Shown piece after piece: positions 45,653 through 57,347 of a stretch of DNA of 64,000 bases (position 1 is its first letter; every line of letters begins with the position of its first letter). This stretch comes from Acidimicrobiia bacterium. Lineage in GTDB: Bacteria; Actinomycetota; Acidimicrobiia; IMCC26256; JAMXLJ01. The translations under genes were made by a program, and so were the position numbers. Location of the stretch: positions 1 to 64,000 of the forward strand of contig JAMXLJ010000127.1 of assembly GCA_024281095.1 (NCBI GenBank), read 5' to 3'. Under the pieces are notes generated by a model. That model saw only the letters and a list, made by a program, of their open reading frames with translations. It ran no database searches and was not told the origin of the DNA.

Positions 45653-47302
45653 GTGATACGCGAACGTCTCGACCACGCACTGCGCGACGCCATGACCGCG
45701 GCCGGCCTTCCGGCGCCCGCGGGCGACGGCGCGCTGGTCGAACCCGCGCGCAAGGGCTTCGGCGACTGGGGGAGCAACGCGGCGATGCGGCTCGCCCGCG
45801 ACGTCGGCTCACCCCCGCGAGACGTGGCGCAACGCATCGTGGCGGCGCTCGAACGGGCCCGGCCCGACCACGTCGAGCGCATCACCGTGGACGGGCCCGG
45901 TTTCATCAACTTCCACCTCGCGCCGACGTGGCTGTACGACGTGCTTCGCGAGGTGGTTGCCTCCGGTGACCGCTATGGCCGCGGCCAGGCGTACGCGGGG
46001 CAGCGGATCAACCTGGAGTTCGTGTCGGCCAACCCGACTGGGCCCCTGCACGCGGGCGGCGGACGCTGGGTCGCGGTCGGAGATGCGATCGCGAACCTGC
46101 TCGCATCGCAGGGAGCCGAGGTGCACCGCGAGTACTACCTGAACGACGCGGGAGCGCAGCTCGAGACCTTCGGAAGGTCCCTCTACGCGCGCTACCGCGG
46201 CGAGGATCCGCCCGAAGACGGCTACCGCGGCCAGTACCTCGTCGACATGGCCGAGCGGCTTCGTGCCGAACGGGGCGACGACGTCACGGAGGACGAGGCG
46301 CGCGAGTGGGGCTACCACGAGGTCGTGCGTGGTCTCCGGGAAGACCTCGCCCGCATCGGCGTGCGCTTCGACACGTGGTTCTCCGAGCGCGACCTGCACG
46401 AACATGGCGAGGTCGACGACGTGCTGCGCGAGCTCGCGGCGCGCGGGCACGCCTTCGAGGACGACGGCGCGGTGTGGCTGCGGTCGACCGCGTTCGGCGA
46501 CAGCCGCGACCGTGTGCTCGTCAAGGGCGACGGCGCGCCGACGTATCTCGCGGCCGACCTCGCGTATCACCGCGACAAGTTCAGGCGAGGCTGGAATCAC
46601 CTCGTCGACATCTGGGGTGCCGACCATCACGGCCAGGTCAAGTCGTTGCAGTCGGGCATGGAGGCGCTCGGCTTCCCGCCGAACGAGCCCGAGGTGATCC
46701 TCGGTCAGCTCGTCACGCTCGTGAGCGGCGGTGCAGTCGTGCGAATCTCCAAGCGGACGGGCAACATCATCACGCTGGCCGACATCCTCGACGAAGTCGA
46801 TCCCGACGTCGCCCGGTTGACGTTCCTGCTGCAGAGCATCGACAGCGCGCAGACGTTCGACCTCGACGTCGTCACGTCGCAGTCGATGGAGAACCCCGTC
46901 TACTACGTGCAGTACGCGCACGCTCGGATCGCGTCCATCGGCCGGAAGGCTGCGGAGCTCGGCGTCGAGCGTCGTCCGCTCGACGAGGTCGACCTGACGG
47001 TGCTCGTGCACGAGCGCGAGCTCGACCTGCTCCGCGCGCTCGCGTTGTATCCCGACGCGGTGGCCGAAGCGGCCGCGTTGCGGGCGCCGCATCGCGTCAC
47101 GGCATGGGTACGGGATTTCGCGGCACGGTTCCACGGGTTCTACCGTGACTGCCGCGTCATCTCCGAGGACGATGCGATCACGCAGGCACGTCTCTGGCTG
47201 GCCGAGGCCGCGCGTATCGCGCTCGCGGACGCGCTCGGCTTGCTCGGTGTGCACGCTCCCGACGAGATGTCGCGCCTCGACGAGGGCGACGACGGACAAT
47301 GA
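45653..47302 (+). CDS. argS: Arginyl-tRNA synthetase
   Basis: Class I aminoacyl-tRNA synthetase of 549 residues, cytosolic. N-terminal Add-1-like domain (about residues 1-85), then the HIGH-equivalent in SANPTGPLHAGGGRW, YYLNDAG, and the KMSKS-equivalent VRISKRTGNI; anticodon-binding helical domain at the C-terminus. First gene of argS-lysA-hom-thrC, the order found in mycobacteria. GTG start. Coupled to lysA through ATGA. Confidence 0.94.
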   Translation: MIRERLDHALRDAMTAAGLPAPAGDGALVEPARKGFGDWGSNAAMRLARDVGSPPRDVAQRIVAALERARPDHVERITVDGPGFINFHLAPTWLYDVLREVVASGDRYGRGQAYAGQRINLEFVSANPTGPLHAGGGRWVAVGDAIANLLASQGAEVHREYYLNDAGAQLETFGRSLYARYRGEDPPEDGYRGQYLVDMAERLRAERGDDVTEDEAREWGYHEVVRGLREDLARIGVRFDTWFSERDLHEHGEVDDVLRELAARGHAFEDDGAVWLRSTAFGDSRDRVLVKGDGAPTYLAADLAYHRDKFRRGWNHLVDIWGADHHGQVKSLQSGMEALGFPPNEPEVILGQLVTLVSGGAVVRISKRTGNIITLADILDEVDPDVARLTFLLQSIDSAQTFDLDVVTSQSMENPVYYVQYAHARIASIGRKAAELGVERRPLDEVDLTVLVHERELDLLRALALYPDAVAEAAALRAPHRVTAWVRDFAARFHGFYRDCRVISEDDAITQARLWLAEAARIALADALGLLGVHAPDEMSRLDEGDDGQ

Positions 47303-48609
47303 GCGCGCCGATCGACCTCGGATTGCTTCCGCGCAGCGCGCAGATCGCAACGAGCCGGCTCTCGATAGGCGGCTGCGACCTCGAAGAGCTCGCCGACCGT
47401 TTCGGCACGCCGCTCATCGTGTACGACGAGGGTGAACTGCGGGCGCGCTGTGCCGAGTACCGGAGGTGCTTCGGCGAGGATTCCGTTGCGTACGCGGGAA
47501 AGGCGTTTCTTTGCCTGGCGATGGCGCGCCTGGTGCACGAGGAGGGTCTGCACCTCGACGTCGTGACGGGCGGGGAGCTGCAGACCGCGCTGCAAGCCGG
47601 GTTTCCGGCGGACCGTCTCGTCTTCCACGGGAACAACAAGTCCGATGACGAGCTTCGGTGCGCGCTGCGCGAGCACGTCGGGCGCGTGGTCGTCGATTCG
47701 TTCGACGAGATCGAGCGAATCGAGCGCCTCGTGGACGAGGGTTTCGACGCACCGAGCGTCTCGGTGCGTGTCACGCCGGGTGTCGAGGCGCACACCCATG
47801 CCTACATCGAGACCGGAACGGAGGACTCGAAGTTCGGCTTCGGCGTCGACGCCGGCGTTGCGCTCGAAGCCGTGTTGCGCGTCGCGGAGAGCGCGGCGAT
47901 GCGCCTCGGGGGCGTGCACTGCCACATCGGGTCCCAGGTCTGGAACCTCACGTCGTACGCGCGGGCGATGCGCGTGGTCGTCGACCTCGTCGCGACCGTG
48001 GGGAAGCAACTGGGCGCTCCCGTCGAGGAGCTCAACATCGGTGGCGGGCTCGGGATCGCCTATCACGCGGGCGACGCGGCGCCCACGATCGCCGAGTACG
48101 CCGAGGTCGTGCACCATGCGTTCGACGACGCGTGCGCAGCCGCGGGACTTGATTCGCGGCCGCACCTGATGGTGGAGCCGGGCCGTTCGATCGCGGGACC
48201 GGCCGGCCTCACGCTGTACCGCGTCGGCACGATCAAGAACGTGCCGTCCGTGCGCACGTACATCGCCGTCGACGGCGGGATGAGCGACAACCCGCGACCG
48301 GTCATGTACGGCGCCCGCTACGAAGCCTTCCTCCCTGCACGTGCCGATGCAGACCGTCCTTTCGTCGCTACCGTGGCCGGCAAGCACTGCGAGCAGGGTG
48401 ACCTCCTCGTGCGTGACGCGACACTGCCGGATGGCGTCGCGGTCGGCGACGTGCTCGCAGTGCCGGTGACGGGCGCGTACGGCTACTCCATGGCGTCCAA
48501 CTACAACCGGGTGCCACGGCCCGCGGTCGTCTTCGTCACCGAAGGCGCGGCCCGAGTGATACTCCGCCGGGAGACCCTCGACGACCTCCTACGCTTGGAC
48601 CAGTCGTGA
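47299..48609 (+). CDS. lysA: Diaminopimelate decarboxylase
   Basis: PLP enzyme of the alanine-racemase fold that makes L-lysine from meso-diaminopimelate. Schiff-base Lys68 (AYAGKAFL), HCHIGSQ, NIGGGLGIAY (phosphate binding), EPGRSIAGPAG, and the C-terminal CEQGD and GAYGYSMASNYN with catalytic Cys and Tyr. 436 residues. ATG overlaps the argS stop. Last gene before the hom leader. Confidence 0.94.
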   Translation: MSAPIDLGLLPRSAQIATSRLSIGGCDLEELADRFGTPLIVYDEGELRARCAEYRRCFGEDSVAYAGKAFLCLAMARLVHEEGLHLDVVTGGELQTALQAGFPADRLVFHGNNKSDDELRCALREHVGRVVVDSFDEIERIERLVDEGFDAPSVSVRVTPGVEAHTHAYIETGTEDSKFGFGVDAGVALEAVLRVAESAAMRLGGVHCHIGSQVWNLTSYARAMRVVVDLVATVGKQLGAPVEELNIGGGLGIAYHAGDAAPTIAEYAEVVHHAFDDACAAAGLDSRPHLMVEPGRSIAGPAGLTLYRVGTIKNVPSVRTYIAVDGGMSDNPRPVMYGARYEAFLPARADADRPFVATVAGKHCEQGDLLVRDATLPDGVAVGDVLAVPVTGAYGYSMASNYNRVPRPAVVFVTEGAARVILRRETLDDLLRLDQS

Positions 48610-48634
48610 CGCTTCCGGGCCACCGTTGTGCCCA

Positions 48635-48748
48635 TGCGGCGACCGGAGCGAGCGGACGCGAGCGCAGGGAGCTCGCCAGCGAACGAACGACGCGGTGGAG
48701 CAAGGTGAACCCCGGAGCCCAGAGCGAGTGAGTGAGCGAGAAGGCATG
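48635..48748 (+). repeat. hom copy of the duplicated kgd/hom leader
   Basis: The 114 bp ending at the hom start codon are homologous to the kgd leader, in sense orientation to the gene in both cases. A small hairpin GCGAGC-GCAGGGA-GCTCGC is in this copy. Just before the start both copies read GCGAGTGAGTGAGCGAGAAG. If the in-frame GTG there is used, both proteins would begin Met-Ser-Glu-Arg-Glu. Confidence 0.8.
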
Positions 48749-50026
48749 GTCAGGGTCGGATTGCTCGGCTGCGGCCACGTCGGCGCGCCGCTGGCGCGTC
48801 TCGTCGACGAACACCGCGCGCTGATCGAGGCCCGCGCGGGCGTGCGGATCGAGATCGTCCGGGTCGCGGTGCGCAACCTCGCCCGAGAGCGCGACGTGCC
48901 GTTGCCGGCGTCGTGCTTCACGCACGACGCCGATGCGGTGGTCGCCGATCCCGAGGTCGACATCGTCGTCGAGGTGATCGGCGGCATCGAGCCGGCCCGC
49001 TCGCTCATTACCGAGGCGATCAAGCAGGGCAAGCCTGTGGTCACGGCGAACAAGGAGCTCCTCGCGAACGTGGGCAAGGAGCTGTTCGACGCGGCCGAGG
49101 CGGCCGGTGTCGACTTGCTGTTCGAGGCCTCTGTGGCGGGTGGCATCCCGTTGATGCGCCCGCTGCGCGAGTCCCTTGCGGGCGACCGGATCCGGCGCGT
49201 GATGGGCATCGTGAACGGCACGACCAACTACATCCTCACGCGCATGGCCGAGGACGGGTCGTCGTTTCAGGATGCGCTCGCCGAGGCCCAGACCCTCGGG
49301 TACGCGGAACGCGACCCGACTGCGGACGTCGAGGGCTTCGACGCCGCGGCGAAGGCGGCCATCATCGCGACCATCGCGTTCGGCGCGCGCGTCGTCGCGG
49401 GCGACGTGTACAGCGAGGGAATCTCCGAGCTCACGGATCAGGACATCGCGTCGGCGCGCGAGCTCGGCTACGTGGTGAAGCTTCTCGCGATCGCCGAGGA
49501 GGTCGACGGCGACATCGCCGTGCGCGTACATCCGACGATGGTGCCGAGCACGCATCCGCTCGCGGCCGTGCGCGACTCGTTCAACGCGGTCTTCATCGAA
49601 GGTGATGCCGTCGGCGAGCTGATGCTCTACGGGCGCGGCGCGGGTGGCGAGCCCACCGCGTCGGCGGTGTTGGGCGACGTGATCGACGCGGCCAAGAATC
49701 TCGTGTCGGGTGGACGCGGCGCGACCATCGGCGCGCTCACGCGCCGCAGGATCCGTCCGATCGACGAGGTCGAGTCGCAGTTCTATCTTCAGATGGAGGT
49801 CGCAGACCGTCCCGGCGTGCTCGCCGCGATCGCGGCGGCCTTCGGCGAACGTGACGTGTCGATCAAGTCGATGCAGCAAGTAGGGATCGGGGCGGACGCG
49901 CGCCTGATCTTCATCACTCACCGCGCCCGGGAAGCCGACCTGCGCGCCACCATCCACGACCTGCGCGACGTGCCCACGGTGCACCGCGTCGGAAGCGTTC
50001 TGCGCGTGATCGGCGACGACAGATGA
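48746..50026 (+). CDS. hom: Homoserine dehydrogenase
   Basis: NAD(P)-dependent reduction of aspartate semialdehyde to homoserine, leading to threonine and methionine. Rossmann N-terminus ([16 protein letters not shown]), family motifs [33 protein letters not shown] and [13 protein letters not shown]-terminal ACT domain (about residues 350-425) gives threonine feedback. 426 residues. ATG is chosen; a GTG 18 bases earlier lies in the conserved leader. ATGA-type overlap with thrC. Confidence 0.94.
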
Positions 50027-51087
50027 GGCGCGCCGACGGGCTCTGGCCCGGTCTCATCGAGGCGTACCGGGATCGGCTGCCGGTCGGCGAGTCGACGCCG
50101 GTCGTCACGTTGTTCGAGGGTGGTACGCCGCTGCTCGAGGCCCGGCGCCTGTCGGAGCGAACGGGCGCTCGGGTGCTGCTGAAGGTCGAGGGATTGAACC
50201 CCACCGGGTCGTTCAAGGACCGCGGCATGACCGTTGCGATGTCGAAGGCGCTGGAGGACGGCGCGAAGGCGGTCATCTGCGCCTCGACGGGCAACACGTC
50301 CGCGTCGGCGGCCGCGTACGCGGCGCGGGCGGGCCTGGTCTGCGGCGTCGTGCTTCCCGAGGGTCAGATCGCGTTGGGCAAGCTCGCGCAGGCGCTCATC
50401 CACGGCGCTCGCGTGGTGCCGATCCGCGGCAACTTCGACGCCGCGCTCCAAATCGTGCGCGCACTCGGTGAGCGCAACCACGTCACCGTCGTGAACTCGG
50501 TCAACCCGCATCGCATCGAGGGCCAGAAGACCGCCGCGTTCGAGATCGTCGACGCCCTCGGTGACGCGCCGGACGTGCACTGCATCCCCGTGGGCAACGC
50601 CGGCAACATCACCGCGTACTGGAAGGGCTACTGCGAGTATCACGCCGAGGGTCGCGCGCAGCGCCGCCCCCGGATGCTCGGTTGGCAGGCGAGCGGTGCC
50701 GCACCGATCGTCCTCGGCGAGCCGGTCCCGCACCCCGAGACGATCGCGACCGCGATCCAGATCGGGAACCCGGCGAGCTGGGTGGGTGCGGTTGGCGCGC
50801 GCGACGAGTCCGGCGGTGCGATCGGTGCGGTGAGCGACGCCGAGATCCTCGACGCGTACCGGTTGCTCGCATCGGAAGAGGGATGCTTCGTCGAGCCCGC
50901 GTCGGCGGCCTCGGTCGCGGGGCTCCTGCGGGCGGCCGACTCCGGGTTGGTGCACGCGGGCGAGACGGTGGTGTGCACCGTGACGGGGCACGGCCTGAAG
51001 GATCCGCAGCGTGCCATCAGCGAGGTCGCGGTCGGCGAGTCCGTTGCGCCCGAGGTGGGGCTGGTCGCGGCCGAGCTCGGCCTGTGA
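50023..51087 (+). CDS. thrC: Threonine synthase
   Basis: PLP enzyme converting O-phosphohomoserine to threonine. Fold II with Lys65 in [11 protein letters not shown], the cofactor phosphate loop GNAGN, and VTGHGLKDP near the C-terminus. 354 residues, the short bacterial form. ATG overlaps the hom stop. Because its substrate is phosphohomoserine, the cell needs a homoserine kinase, yet no thrB follows. Confidence 0.94.
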
Positions 51088-51958: not shown

Positions 51959-53122
51959 GTGCCCACGTACGTCGTTCTCGTACCCGACGGGTGTGCGGAT
52001 CAGCCGATCGACACACTCGATGGCCGTACGCCGCTCGAAGCCGCGTCGATGCCGAACCTGCAGTCGATGGCGGCGGCTGGCGAAGTCGGACGGGCGCGGG
52101 TGATACCTCCCGGGCTGCCGCCCGGCAGCGACGTGGGCAACCTCGCGATCCTCGGGTACGACCCGGCCTGCTTCCACACCGGACGCGCGCCGATCGAAGC
52201 GGCCGCGATGGGTGTCGAGCTCGCTCCCGACCAAGTGGCGTATCGGTGCAACCTCGTGACGATCGACGAGGCGGGCGTCATGGTCGACTTCGCCGCCGGC
52301 CATCCCACCAACGCGCAGAGCCACGCCATCGTCGCCGCGCTCGACGCCGCGCTCGGCGACGGCCGTGACGGCGTGAAGTTCCATCCCGGCGTGGAGTACC
52401 GCCATCTCGCGGTGCTTCCCGCGTCGCTCGGCGACGCAGCGTGCGTTCCGCCCCACGACCTCACCGGACAGCGCGCCGAGCTTCCCACCGGTCCCGCCGC
52501 GGCGAAGCTCGTCGACCTCATGGACGCGTCGCGCGACGTCGTTCGCCGCGTCGCGCGCGATGTCGGTTCGTCCGCGTCGCAGATCTGGTTATGGGGCCAA
52601 GGCGTGCGCCCGCGGCTGCCCTCTTTCGCCGCGCGCTTCGGCGTCAGCGGCCGGCTCAGCTCGGCGGTCGACCTCGTTCGCGGTCTCGGCGTGCTGACGG
52701 GCCTCGAGGTCGTCGACGTCCCGGGCGCCACCGCAGGATTCGACAACGACTACGCCGCGCAGCGCGACGCGTGCCTCGCGAGCCTGGATGACCGCGACTT
52801 CTTCCTCCTTCATGTGGAGGCGACGGACGAAGCCGGCCACCAGGGCGACGTGCGCGAGAAGGTCGCCGCGCTCGAAGCGTGGGATCGCGAAGTGATCGGC
52901 CCGTTGCTCGAGACACTTCCCGAGCTCGGCCCGCACCGGATCATGTTGCTCCCCGACCATGCGACGCCGTGCGCGCTGCGCACACACACGTCCGACCCGG
53001 TGCCCTATGTGCTGTACGACTCGGAGCGTGCCGGAGCCGGCGGCGTGTACACCGAAGCGGCGACCGCGGGTGCGCCGGAGGTTCCGGCCCACGACCTGAT
53101 GTCGCGACTCGTCACCCGTTGA
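51959..53122 (+). CDS. ApgM-like phosphoglycerate mutase superfamily enzyme (probable homoserine kinase or 2-PG supplier)
   Basis: Alkaline-phosphatase superfamily, archaeal cofactor-independent phosphoglycerate mutase type, 387 residues. N-terminal metal-binding VLVPDGCADQPID, the PGSDVGNLAILGYDP loop with the phospho-acceptor Ser, and C-terminal LHVEATDEAGHQGD and LPDHATP. A subgroup of this family, often beside hom/thrC, is annotated as a proposed homoserine kinase; here it occupies the place of thrB in the mycobacterial argS-prfA order. It also precedes enzymes that consume 2-phosphoglycerate, so mutase activity is the competing reading. GTG start set by its -10. Confidence 0.82.
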   Translation: MPTYVVLVPDGCADQPIDTLDGRTPLEAASMPNLQSMAAAGEVGRARVIPPGLPPGSDVGNLAILGYDPACFHTGRAPIEAAAMGVELAPDQVAYRCNLVTIDEAGVMVDFAAGHPTNAQSHAIVAALDAALGDGRDGVKFHPGVEYRHLAVLPASLGDAACVPPHDLTGQRAELPTGPAAAKLVDLMDASRDVVRRVARDVGSSASQIWLWGQGVRPRLPSFAARFGVSGRLSSAVDLVRGLGVLTGLEVVDVPGATAGFDNDYAAQRDACLASLDDRDFFLLHVEATDEAGHQGDVREKVAALEAWDREVIGPLLETLPELGPHRIMLLPDHATPCALRTHTSDPVPYVLYDSERAGAGGVYTEAATAGAPEVPAHDLMSRLVTR

Positions 53123-53175: not shown

Positions 53176-53181
53176 TATCAT
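53176..53181 (+). promoter_or_regulatory. Candidate -10 for the cyclic diphosphoglycerate genes
   Basis: TATCAT in the 152-bp spacer after the ApgM-like gene. It would give a leader of roughly 85 bases that includes the hairpin at 53195-53220. Confidence 0.4.
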
Positions 53182-53194
53182 CACCTTGCTTCCA

Positions 53195-53220
53195 CGTCCC
53201 CGAACCTCTTGTAGGGGACG
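53195..53220 (+). promoter_or_regulatory. Leader hairpin before the cyclic 2,3-diphosphoglycerate synthetase gene
   Basis: CGTCCCC and GGGGACG form a perfect 7-bp stem with a 12-base loop, placed just before GGAGGT (53227-53232). It could control access to the ribosome-binding site. No further riboswitch-like structure was recognised. Confidence 0.4.
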
Positions 53221-53274
53221 CTTCCCGGAGGTCATCCCACGACTTCGCCGGTCACACCAGCCGGGCGCGTCGTC

Positions 53275-54681
53275 GTGCTCGTCGACGGAGACCATTCACC
53301 AACGGTCGTGCGCGCCGCGCTCGACGATCTGCGTGCGCGCGGCGCCGACCTCGTCGGCGCGGCGTTGCTCGGCGGCGGCGAGAAGCTCGCGCGCGACGCC
53401 GTCGTGGAGATCGGCGTCCCCCTGGTGTCGGGTGAGGACGCGCTCGACGCGACGCTCAAGGCGTTGCAGCAGTTCCGCCCGGCCACGGTTGTCGACTTGT
53501 CCGACGAGCCCGTCATCGACGACCGGCTCCGCGGGCTGCTCGCGGCCCACGCGCTCGTGCGCGGCGTGACCTACCAAGGTGCGGACTTCGTCTACACGCC
53601 GCCGCCGCGGCCGAGAGTCGCGACGAAGCCCACGATCGCGGTCATCGGCACCGGGAAGCGCACCGGGAAGACGACCCTCGCGCAGGGGATCGCGCGCACG
53701 CTCGCGGCCCGCGGGTGCCCTCCGGTCATCGTGACGATGGCACGGGGCGGGCCGCCCGCAGCCGAGCTCGTCGACCCGTCGCGAGACGACTTGTCGACAC
53801 GGGCCCTGCTCGAGCGCGCCGCGCGCGGCGAGCACGCGGCGAGCGACCACCTCGAAGACGCGGTGATGGCGGGAGTCCCGTGTGTCGGCACGCGCCGTTG
53901 CGGCGGTGGCGTCGCGGGCACGCCGTCGTACGACGCGTTCGCGGAAGGTGTGATGCTGGCGAACGAACGAGCGGAACCTGTGCTGCTCCTGGAGGGGTCC
54001 GGCAGCGCGATCCCTCCCGTTCACGCGGACGTGACCGTGTGTGCGGTTCCGATCGACGCCGATCTCGATCTCGTGACTGGCCGTGTCGGCGTGACACGGT
54101 TGTTGCTGAGCGACCTCGTCGTGGGTACACTCGGCGGCGACCCCGACAGGCCAACCAGCAGGGTCGGGCGTCTCTCCCCGAAACGCAACGAGACCGAATC
54201 GTTGCCGGAGCGCAACGCATCGGGATTGCTGCGGGAACGGGGTTTGGAATCCCGTGTGCATTCGGTGGTTCCCGGTGCCCCGGTCGTCTTCAGCAGCTTC
54301 CGGCCCGTTCCGCTCGAACCACTCGACGCACGACGCATCTTCCTCGCCACCACGGCGTCCAGGGAGGTCGCGCCGGCGCTGGCCCGCCGGCTCGAAGCCG
54401 ACTGTGGCGCAGTAGTCCTCGGCTGGAGCAACAACCTGGCGAACCGAGAGCGATTGCGAGTCGACCTCGAGCACGTCCGCGACGCCGACGTGCTCGTGAC
54501 CGAAATGAAGGGTGCCGGCATCGACACGGCAGCCGATTCGGCACTTCAACGGGGCATGGACGTGGTCTTCCTCCGACACGACGTCGAACTGCACGACGAC
54601 TCGTTCACCGAGCGCGTCGTGGCCCTTGCCGAGCTCGCGCGGCGACGGTTCGCGGAGACCGAGCCGGAGGCGTGTGCATGA
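53275..54681 (+). CDS. Cyclic 2,3-diphosphoglycerate synthetase
   Basis: Forms the intramolecular phosphoanhydride of cyclic 2,3-diphosphoglycerate from 2,3-diphosphoglycerate and ATP, a solute known from thermophilic methanogens. 468 residues: N-terminal LVDGDHSPTVV, P-loop IGTGKRTGKTTLAQG, VTMARGGPP, and the C-terminal LGWSNNLANRERL and VTEMKGAGIDTAA, matching the archaeal enzyme. The GTG start lacks a ribosome-binding site; GGAGGT lies 43 bases upstream and in-frame codons between them contain no ATG, GTG or TTG. A region at about residues 290-335 (SRVGRLSPKRNETES...) looks inserted. Coupled to the next gene by ATGA. Confidence 0.85.
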   Translation: MLVDGDHSPTVVRAALDDLRARGADLVGAALLGGGEKLARDAVVEIGVPLVSGEDALDATLKALQQFRPATVVDLSDEPVIDDRLRGLLAAHALVRGVTYQGADFVYTPPPRPRVATKPTIAVIGTGKRTGKTTLAQGIARTLAARGCPPVIVTMARGGPPAAELVDPSRDDLSTRALLERAARGEHAASDHLEDAVMAGVPCVGTRRCGGGVAGTPSYDAFAEGVMLANERAEPVLLLEGSGSAIPPVHADVTVCAVPIDADLDLVTGRVGVTRLLLSDLVVGTLGGDPDRPTSRVGRLSPKRNETESLPERNASGLLRERGLESRVHSVVPGAPVVFSSFRPVPLEPLDARRIFLATTASREVAPALARRLEADCGAVVLGWSNNLANRERLRVDLEHVRDADVLVTEMKGAGIDTAADSALQRGMDVVFLRHDVELHDDSFTERVVALAELARRRFAETEPEACA

Positions 54682-55598
54682 CCGTGTCGCGCCACATCGT
54701 CATCAGCGACGATGCACACGAGCTCCCGTACTCGAAGGGCGTGATGGCGGGCGCGATCATGGCCACAGGGCTCACACCCGCACGCGCGTTCCACGTCGCC
54801 GAGCTGATCGAGGATCGGCTTCACGCGGACGGCGTCACATCGCTCACACGCGCGCAGCTCGCCGAGCAGGCTCGCGCGGCGCTGCACGACGAGGTAGGTG
54901 AGCGGTACGCGACGTCCTTCGAGAAGTGGCAGCGGGTCAACGAGCTCGGCCGTCCGCTCGTCATCCTCATCGGCGGCGCGGCCGGCGTCGGCAAGTCGAC
55001 GATCGCCACGCAGCTCGCGGCCCGCCTCGGCATCACCCGTGTGATCCCCACCGACGCGATCCGCGAGGTGATGCGAGCGATGCTGAGCGACGAGTTGCTC
55101 CCGGCGCTGCACGCCTCGTCGTTCGACACGGACCGGTCCGTCCTCAAGCCGGTGCCGCGCAACGCCGATCCCGTGGTGATCGGCTACCGCGAGCAGGCGG
55201 CGGCCGTCGCGGTCGGCATCAAGGCGCTCGTTCGGCGCGCGATCATGGAAGGGACCGACCTCGTCCTCGAGGGCGCACACATCGCCCCCGGGTTCGTGGA
55301 TCTCGACGAACTCGAGCGTGCGGTCGTCGTGTCCTTCCTCGTGACCGTCGAAGACGAGGACCTTCACCGCTCGCATTTCGTCCGCCGGGCCCACGATGCC
55401 CGGGGCCGGCCGATGGACAGATATCTCCAGTACTTCGACCACATCCGAACCATTCAGCGTTACGTCACCTCGCTGGCCCGTGACCACGGCATGCCGATCA
55501 TCCCCTCGTACAGCCTGGACGCGACCTTGTCCCAAGTCATCGAGCTCGTGTTGAGCCGGGCCTTGGCCGCCGTGCCCACCCCCCAACCCGTTCCCTGA
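54678..55598 (+). CDS. 2-phosphoglycerate kinase
   Basis: Phosphorylates 2-phosphoglycerate to 2,3-diphosphoglycerate, the substrate of the preceding enzyme. The N-terminal ATP-cone-like domain (about residues 1-90; ELPYSKGVMAGAIMATGLTP) is followed by a P-loop kinase domain with LIGGAAGVGKSTIATQLAAR and an IPTDAIREVMRAM Asp-containing motif. 306 residues, as in methanogen 2PGK. ATG overlaps the synthetase stop. The two-gene unit gives a complete 2-PG to cyclic DPG route. Ends 12 bp before rho. Confidence 0.87.
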   Translation: MTVSRHIVISDDAHELPYSKGVMAGAIMATGLTPARAFHVAELIEDRLHADGVTSLTRAQLAEQARAALHDEVGERYATSFEKWQRVNELGRPLVILIGGAAGVGKSTIATQLAARLGITRVIPTDAIREVMRAMLSDELLPALHASSFDTDRSVLKPVPRNADPVVIGYREQAAAVAVGIKALVRRAIMEGTDLVLEGAHIAPGFVDLDELERAVVVSFLVTVEDEDLHRSHFVRRAHDARGRPMDRYLQYFDHIRTIQRYVTSLARDHGMPIIPSYSLDATLSQVIELVLSRALAAVPTPQPVP

Positions 55599-55610: not shown

Positions 55611-57347
55611 ATGAGCGAGCAGCAACTCGAGCGTTCCATGCTCGACGGCAAGGACCGCGAGGAGCTGCATGCCATCGCGGGTGCGATGGGCGTGCGTGGT
55701 GTCACACGCATGCGCAAGGCCGACCTCGTCGAGGCGATCCTTGCCGCGGCGGGCGCCAACGGCACCGGGAACGGCGCCGAGCCGGCGGCCGCCAAGCCGA
55801 AGCGCGTGCGGAGCCGCAAAGCTCCGGTCGAGGACCCGATCGCCGCGCTGGCCGCCGAAGAGGAAGCACTCGCGGCGGCCACGGCCGACACCTCGGATGC
55901 CGGTCCGTCGGCTGCGACGGAGCGCGCTGACACCGGGGAAACGACGACCGACGCCCGCTCCGCCGAGCCCGCGGTCGACCGTCCCGGGAGCAACGGCACT
56001 GCGGGCGACGGTTCCCAGGCGGCGGCCACGAACGACGGCGACCGGGCCGCCGAGGCATCGACCACGACGACGACTGCTCCGGCCTCCACGCCGGCGCGCA
56101 CCGACGACGACGACCGCCAGTCGTACGGCGAGGGCAACCGGCGCCGGCGAAGGCGCCGCGGCCGCGACCGTGACCGCCAGTACGAAGGCGGCCCACGGCC
56201 CGAGGAGCCGATGGGCGAGCCGATCGAGGTGCAGGGCCTGCTCGACTTGCGCGACGAGGGATACGGCTTCCTGCGCACGACGAGCTACCTGCCGGGCTCG
56301 AAGGACGTGTACGTGTCGGCCTCGCAGGTGCGGCGCTTCGCTCTCCGCAAGGGCGACTTCGTACGCGGCGCGACGCGTCCGCCGGCGAGCAACGAGAAGT
56401 ACCCCGCGTTGCTGCGCGTCGACGAGATCAACGACATGTCGCCCGACGACGCCCGTTCCCGCCCGCGCTTCGAGGACCTGACGCCCCTGTTCCCCGACGA
56501 GAAGCTCCGGCTGGAGCTGCGCGAGGACCCGGCCAACATGACCGGCCGGATCGTCGACCTGATCTCCCCGATCGGGAAGGGTCAGCGCGGCCTCATCGTG
56601 TCGCCGCCGAAGGCGGGCAAGACGACGATCCTCAAGCAGCTCGTGTACTCCGTGGAGCGCAACAACCCCGAGGTGCACCTGATGGTGCTGCTCGTCGACG
56701 AGCGCCCCGAAGAGGTCACCGACATGCGCCGCCACGTGATGCGCGGCGAGGTCGTCGCGAGCACGTTCGACCGCCCGAGCGAGGAGCACACGCAGGTCGC
56801 GGAGCTCACGATCGAGCGGGCGAAGCGGCTCGTGGAGCTCGGCAACGACGTGGTGATCGTGCTCGACGGCATCACCCGTCTGGCGCGCGCCTACAACCTC
56901 GCCCAGCCCGCCTCCGGCCGCATCCTGTCGGGAGGTGTCGACTCGACCGCGCTGTACCCGCCGAAGCGGTTCTTCGGTGCGGCCCGGAACATCGAGGAGG
57001 GTGGCTCGCTCACGATCGTCGCGACCGCGCTGATCGAGACCGGCAGTCGCATGGACGAGGTGATCTTCGAGGAGTTCAAGGGCACCGGCAACATGGAGCT
57101 GCGCCTCGACCGTCGCCTGGCCGAGCGGCGCATCTATCCCGCGATCGACGTGGAGGCGTCGAGCACCCGCCACGAGGAGCTGCTCTTCGACCGCAGCCAG
57201 CTCCAGCAGGTGTGGAAGCTGCGCCGGGTGCTGAACGCCCTCGAGGGGGGTGCCGGCCTCGAGCTGCTGATCGACAAGATCCGCACGACCCGCAGCAACG
57301 ACGAGTTCCTGGCCGAGATCGCCAAGGCGCCCACGCCCGGCGGCTAG
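55611..57347 (+). CDS. rho: Transcription termination factor Rho
   Basis: Hexameric RNA helicase/translocase. N-terminal Rho_N helix ([20 protein letters not shown]), then an actinobacterial disordered insertion (about residues 55-190) that is acidic/Ala-rich before turning Arg-rich ([12 protein letters not shown]), the cold-shock-like RNA-binding domain ([15 protein letters not shown]), and the ATPase with [24 protein letters not shown] and the R-loop (RARAYN-like [10 protein letters not shown]). 578 residues. Good GAGGAG before ATG. Its presence fits the scarcity of U-tract terminators in the window. Confidence 0.95.

Follow-up and report, generated by a model that had tools for sequence, protein, structure and literature searches.

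A putative two-gene module for cyclic 2,3-diphosphoglycerate synthesis at the thr-rho locus of Actinomycetota, with near-cognate start codons and a candidate hydrolase gene

In a stretch of 64,000 nucleotides from an Acidimicrobiia bacterium (hereafter the window; contig JAMXLJ010000127.1, assembly GCA_024281095.1), the genes for a cyclic 2,3-diphosphoglycerate (cDPG) synthetase (cDPGS) and a 2-phosphoglycerate kinase (2PGK) are both present, in that order, directly upstream of rho. We consider it likely that this pair is a working module for cDPG synthesis, that its product is turned over by a metallophosphoesterase, that cDPGS starts at a near-cognate codon, and that the module was already present in the ancestor of much of Actinomycetota. 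cDPG is a protectant rich in phosphate. According to two open-access papers of 2023 and 2025, it occurs solely in hyperthermophilic methanogens (PMC10690619, PMC12136491), but a review lists Methanobrevibacter smithii too (PMC1224877), and the synthetase gene has been described from genomes of ammonia-oxidising archaea (PMC7554672). No report of a bacterial cDPGS or bacterial cDPG, nor of the pair in Actinomycetota, was found in the open-access literature. In contrast to this restriction to methanogens, the intact synthesis module is found in over half of the Actinomycetota genomes sampled, as well as in haloarchaea, Thermoplasmata and Aminicenantes.

All window features given here lie on the forward strand. 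cDPGS occupies 53239..54681 (480 aa with the probable start at ACG, or 468 aa with GTG 53275) and shares a 4-bp ATGA stop/start overlap (54678..54681) with 2PGK (54678..55598, 306 aa), while rho (55611..57347), a syntenic anchor by gene order, lies 12 bp further on. On the upstream side are a second syntenic anchor, the lysA-hom-thrC block (47299..51087), a short-chain dehydrogenase gene and an apgM-type gene (51959..53122, 387 aa; phosphoglycerate mutase or proposed homoserine kinase by NCBIfam). The whole order is lysA, hom, thrC, short-chain dehydrogenase, apgM-type gene, cDPGS, 2PGK, rho, with prfA further on. The original prediction of a four-base overlap before rho, within a core housekeeping locus, was confirmed, the lysA-hom-thrC...rho-prfA setting being one that recurs across classes. 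Of the span that it gave to the module, 53176-55598, the end stands and the start does not, as an in-frame TAG (53212..53214) excludes a cDPGS start at 53176. cDPGS is a single-copy gene in this genome. A structured leader RNA 5' of cDPGS was rejected, as the leader showed just a 7-bp hairpin (z=-1.2) and no match to an Rfam family; the promoter and terminator scan gave nothing exceeding chance, and the search for plasmid relatives returned none.

The identity of cDPGS was examined by homology, residues and fold. A phmmer search of the PDB matched cDPGS entries alone (8ork/8oru, E=1e-71; 9sxb, E=3e-70), and no Pfam or NCBIfam model matched the protein. Homology to the Methanothermus fervidus enzyme is full-length (residues 10-463, E=1e-71), with ~35% identity to the archaeal enzyme. 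The AlphaFold model (mean pLDDT 90, pTM 0.90) has the expected two-domain fold and was aligned by Foldseek with ligand-bound 8ORU at TM scores of 0.87/0.91, nothing else being close.

The roles of ligand and catalytic residues are known from the 2,3-DPG/ADP/Mg complex of M. fervidus cDPGS (PMC10690619). Residues E45, K46, K145, R146, K149, T150, D208, T353, E404 and K406 (M. fervidus numbering) are all kept in the window protein, and the same residues are kept in 45-47 of 47 actinobacterial cDPGS sequences. By alignment, the Glu-Lys pair E48 K49 (53380..53385) corresponds to E45 K46, which contact the substrate from the other subunit; K140, R141, K144 and T145 of the Walker A motif GTGKRTGKT (53647..53673) correspond to K145, R146, K149 and T150; Asp203 (53845..53847) corresponds to the Mg ligand D208; and E422 and K424 (54502..54510) correspond to E404 and K406, which contact ATP and phosphate. 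Two nucleotide contacts need comment. E305 aligns to a G in a poorly aligned, variable loop and varies among relatives, and for P335 the number in PMC10690619 is mismatched with the chain numbering used, the FRP motif being kept. Judged from these residues, the predicted two-enzyme route from 2-phosphoglycerate (2-PG) to cDPG appears complete, and the loss of key catalytic residues relative to the methanogen enzymes, a point on which the prediction could have failed, is not seen.

It could be argued that this cDPGS homologue now acts on a different acid-phosphate substrate and makes a related cyclic or acyl phosphate in place of cDPG. Such a shift would fit the ~35% identity to the archaeal enzyme, a window-specific loop at 300-330 and the replacement of MGRGG by MARGG in cDPGS of its own genus, and no assay of a bacterial member was found in the literature. 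We nevertheless regard it as unlikely, given that the ligands of 2,3-DPG and Mg are nearly all invariant and that the partner of cDPGS is always a 2PGK homologue.

The downstream protein matched two NCBIfam models, PRK12337 (E=7e-94, 315 bits against a cut-off of 603) and PRK04220 (E=2e-87, 293 bits against 343), falling below both equivalog cut-offs. It carries an intact P-loop (GGAAGVGKST, 54972-55001), many invariant polar residues and an NMP-kinase-like fold. We do not call it an equivalog; by its context, it is a homologue that probably works like 2PGK. 2PGK has also been noted in Thermus and Deinococcus (PMC1274311).

The gene pair is far beyond chance: in 77 of 80 named loci 2PGK directly follows cDPGS (counting L060, where a gap of ~4 kb parts them), and the three exceptions lie at contig ends. 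These loci span actinobacteria, Aminicenantes, Mcinerneyibacterium, haloarchaea, Thermoplasmata, Methanolliviera and Methanohalarchaeum. Within the window's order, both genes are present in 7/7 testable genomes, two further cDPGS genomes being set aside because their contig ends inside cDPGS, and no strong 2PGK match was found apart from the cDPGS-bearing genomes. Moreover, the tree of cDPGS is correlated with that of 2PGK (Mantel r=0.67, a value reached in none of 999 shuffles). Some loci depart from the common layout. The ~4 kb gap (L060:7236-11431) belongs to an Acidimicrobiia MAG and is the sole case of a parted pair among the named loci; in one order member, 2PGK is split over two frames (L032:2856-3753; G323), which may reflect an error of sequencing or decay of the gene copy. 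Outside Acidimicrobiia, most Actinomycetota have a transaldolase/fructose-6-phosphate aldolase gene between 2PGK and rho (L064-L132).

The start of cDPGS deserves a closer look. Downstream of the excluding TAG, ACG 53239 is the sole candidate start with a good Shine-Dalgarno site (GGAGG, 53227..53231, 7 nt 5' of the ACG). The first ATG, GTG or TTG in frame is GTG 53275, which lies within the first beta strand of the model; a start there would remove three residues of that strand. No canonical codon was found at least five codons ahead of the DGDH motif of the window protein. cDPGS of the window therefore probably starts at ACG 53239, an assignment made from the Shine-Dalgarno site and the lack of alternatives, nothing more.

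This situation is a common one among cDPGS genes. When only closed frames were considered (those bounded by a stop no more than 30 codons upstream), 22 of 42 cDPGS frames lacked any ATG, GTG or TTG, vs 1 of 30 for 2PGK (p=4e-6). Sister genes have ATG, ATC, ATT or CTG at the homologous position, ahead of CGY-TAY, and the cDPGS genes of Aquicultor relatives have ATA following GGAGGTG. Apparent starts on ATC, ATA, ATT, CTG or ACG behind a strong Shine-Dalgarno site were seen repeatedly across Actinomycetota (window 53227-53277; L003, L005-L008, L011, L012, L015, L021, L024, L029, L030, L073-L105). It should be noted that in L053 and L060 the ApgM stop TAG lies in frame with, and immediately 5' of, the cDPGS start (ACG or ATC), an arrangement in which stop-start reinitiation or readthrough is possible. 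Streptomyces sigR (GTC) and infC offer precedents for the repression of non-canonical starts by IF3 (PMC5472188). By analogy with them, the near-cognate starts of cDPGS suggest an IF3-type throttling of its translation, which would place a metabolic gene among the very few known candidates for such control. Given that these rare start codons are conserved, the cDPGS start is easily misannotated.

A clear cDPGS was found in 163 of 296 evenly sampled Actinomycetota genomes (165 if two weak matches are counted). It is far rarer close to the window, in 18 of 296 genomes of the class Acidimicrobiia and 9 of 58 of the order. Order members that lack the module run from apgM directly to rho, a clean absence, and the fixed physiological role that had been suggested for this lineage is not supported. 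At greater distance, the order thrC...cDPGS-2PGK...rho...prfA recurs in Coriobacteriia, Aquicultor, Geothermincola, Euzebyaceae and others. The carriers include groundwater and sediment MAGs and Natronorubrum thiooxidans, a cultivated, non-methanogenic, haloalkaliphilic archaeon in which cDPG can be sought by 31P NMR. Most relatives are MAGs, for which contamination and wrong names are possible. Three loci titled Acidobacteria, Slackia heliotrinireducens and Acidimicrobium ferrooxidans (L089, L091 and L095, respectively) look misnamed, as they group with other Actinomycetota lineages, and the first of them corresponds to a genome assigned to the class of the window.

In the unrooted cDPGS tree, archaeal-type sequences (including those of Aminicenantes and Mcinerneyibacterium) and Actinomycetota form two sides of one branch (SH-aLRT 95). 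The phylogeny called for by the original prediction thus lends no support to a recent transfer from methanogens. Patchiness within the window's own class is what a recent horizontal acquisition as a thermoprotection trait would produce, yet the module sits at the same locus in many classes, its absence between apgM and rho in relatives is precise, and its carriers are not tied to hot habitats; together with the tree, this makes such an acquisition very improbable. Because the adjacency of 2PGK and the same locus setting recur across classes, the module looks ancestral to the phylum or to much of it, retained at the thr-rho locus, with numerous losses. An ancient single-locus module that was repeatedly lost is also the simplest history.

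We also considered how 2-PG would reach the module. The apgM-type gene upstream scores 430.8 bits with PRK04200 (cut-off 426), 412.6 with TIGR02535 (446.3) and 405.7 with apgM (320), and a second gene of this type is present in the genome (G000:C47:31264-32298). A profile search of the genome found no thrB, dPGM or gpmI above cut-off, the best dPGM score being 47 bits against 81.7. The two apgM-type genes may divide the tasks, one encoding the homoserine kinase and the other the mutase; as thrB is below cut-off, the window ApgM may act as homoserine kinase, mutase or both. Since two apgM-type genes are present and no dPGM or gpmI exceeded its cut-off, an ApgM presumably provides the 2-PG. The upstream enzyme is a possible source, yet a housekeeping one: apgM occurs in 47 of 58 order genomes, most of them without cDPGS, and a role as dedicated third gene of the module was ruled out on this count.

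A different purpose for the pair follows from the product of 2PGK. 2,3-Bisphosphoglycerate is the cofactor of the cofactor-dependent phosphoglycerate mutase (dPGM), and the pair might supply it, with cDPG as a side or storage form. With no dPGM above cut-off in the genome itself, and with apgM-type enzymes present that do not need the cofactor, we hold this to be quite improbable; moreover, it would leave the constant partnership of cDPGS with 2PGK unexplained.

A third gene appears to belong to this system. A calcineurin-like metallophosphoesterase (PF00149) accompanies the pair as a neighbour in 44 of 80 loci. Most Actinomycetota have it ahead of cDPGS; in Thermoplasmata, Aminicenantes and Mcinerneyibacterium it follows 2PGK. 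In Acidimicrobiia it lies between cDPGS and 2PGK in one family, is convergent in another and is unlinked in most. It is likewise not near the module in Methanolliviera, in Methanohalarchaeum or in the window, whose genome carries it on a separate contig (P0008, G000:C70:19661-20422). There (L190:5584-6441, minus strand), its neighbours are a gpsA-like glycerol-3-phosphate dehydrogenase gene and an acyltransferase-like gene. The actinobacterial and Aminicenantes proteins share 40% identity over 220 residues, and the pattern HHH...P...GRER is common to 88 sequences, GRER being invariant. Other neighbours were seen elsewhere. In haloarchaea, a PHP-domain phosphoesterase adjoins 2PGK instead (L098:8442-9236, L108, L120) and is possibly a non-homologous replacement; in Mcinerneyibacterium, a CBS-domain protein, possibly a nucleotide sensor of the cycle, stands between 2PGK and the metallophosphoesterase (L107:8269-8700).

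The presence of this phosphoesterase was searched in the same genomes as cDPGS. Across the phylum, 159 genomes have both, 4 cDPGS only, 3 the phosphoesterase only and 130 neither (p=7e-75); in Acidimicrobiia the counts are 18, 0, 1 and 277 (p=7e-28), these Fisher p-values ignoring relatedness. The lone exception in the class is a 78%-complete MAG whose family has both genes. On the apgM tree of the window's order, about three changes of state are needed, with further ones in the class as a whole, and common descent could make the co-occurrence look stronger than it is.

A review describes a cDPG hydrolase activity, membrane-bound in M. thermautotrophicus, and names no gene for it (PMC1224877). 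The GRER metallophosphoesterase is the best candidate for this gene-less step. This is our leading proposal, and it is made because members of the calcineurin-like superfamily, such as LpxH and ApaH, cleave phosphoanhydrides; it would name a candidate gene for cDPG breakdown. The protein may instead be a co-inherited bystander, or dephosphorylate 2,3-DPG or 3-PG, and we give this a substantial chance, somewhat below even. The superfamily acts on many substrates, the nearest solved relatives are GpdQ/Rv0805-type phosphodiesterases (E about 1e-11), and both genes may be old ones lost in the same lineages. Against this stand an almost perfect co-occurrence with cDPGS despite the lack of linkage in most of the window's class, a repeated placement beside the pair, in differing arrangements and in two domains, and the invariant GRER signature.

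With the phosphoesterase taken as candidate hydrolase, the following cycle can be proposed. 2PGK would convert 2-PG to 2,3-DPG, and a cDPGS dimer with Mg-ATP would phosphorylate the 2-phosphate; following the mechanism put forward for M. fervidus cDPGS, the 3-phosphate would then displace Pi, which closes the phosphoanhydride ring. The GRER phosphoesterase (G000:C70:19661-20422) would hydrolyse cDPG to 2,3-DPG or further. Synthesis and breakdown would thus form a closed cycle in which phosphate, carbon and anhydride energy are stored beside gluconeogenesis. In many relatives, and probably in the window, a near-cognate cDPGS start preceded by a strong Shine-Dalgarno site would limit synthesis and allow IF3-type control of it. 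For methanogens, buffering of phosphate, carbon and anhydride energy has been suggested as a role of cDPG (PMC1224877). Thermoprotection as a general role is doubtful, because a haloalkaliphilic archaeon is among the carriers, as are bacteria from sediment or groundwater. Of the roles named in the original prediction, solute, phosphate reserve and signal may each apply. More tentatively, we put forward the broader picture, which we think somewhat less likely than not, of a three-gene cDPG cycle (2PGK, cDPGS and the GRER phosphoesterase as hydrolase) in much of Actinomycetota, inherited from the phylum ancestor and throttled at cDPGS by conserved near-cognate starts, with cDPG serving as a general phosphate, carbon and energy buffer and not as a hyperthermophile solute.

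Overall, the module resembles the cDPG pathway of thermophilic methanogens (PMC1224877, PMC12136491) in its two enzymes, leading from 2-PG through 2,3-DPG to cDPG, and differs in being found in bacteria, with overlapping genes and a co-occurring metallophosphoesterase as candidate hydrolase. The window cDPGS shares with that of M. fervidus (8ORK, 8ORU; PMC10690619) its full-length homology, fold, Walker A motif and the Mg and substrate ligands; unlike it, this is a bacterial enzyme of ~35% identity, with a probable ACG start and a loop near 307-330 longer by 24 residues, and its gene overlaps 2PGK in a thr-rho housekeeping locus. The kinase is homologous over nearly its whole length, P-loop included, to archaeal 2PGK (PRK04220) and to the longer PRK12337 form, but scores under both equivalog cut-offs and, at 306 aa, is without the N-terminal extension of PRK12337. 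The phosphoesterase has the calcineurin-like motifs of the Rv0805/GpdQ class III phosphodiesterases, whereas its similarity to them is weak, it has a GRER signature of its own and it is tied to cDPGS; it looks soluble, in contrast to the membrane-bound hydrolase of M. thermautotrophicus (PMC1224877). Finally, the starts of cDPGS recall those of Streptomyces sigR and infC in combining a strong Shine-Dalgarno site with a codon that is near-cognate or otherwise non-canonical, and the Streptomyces genes set an actinobacterial precedent for repression by IF3; unlike them, cDPGS is a metabolic gene and uses several different codons (ATA, ATC, ATT, CTG and ACG) across classes.
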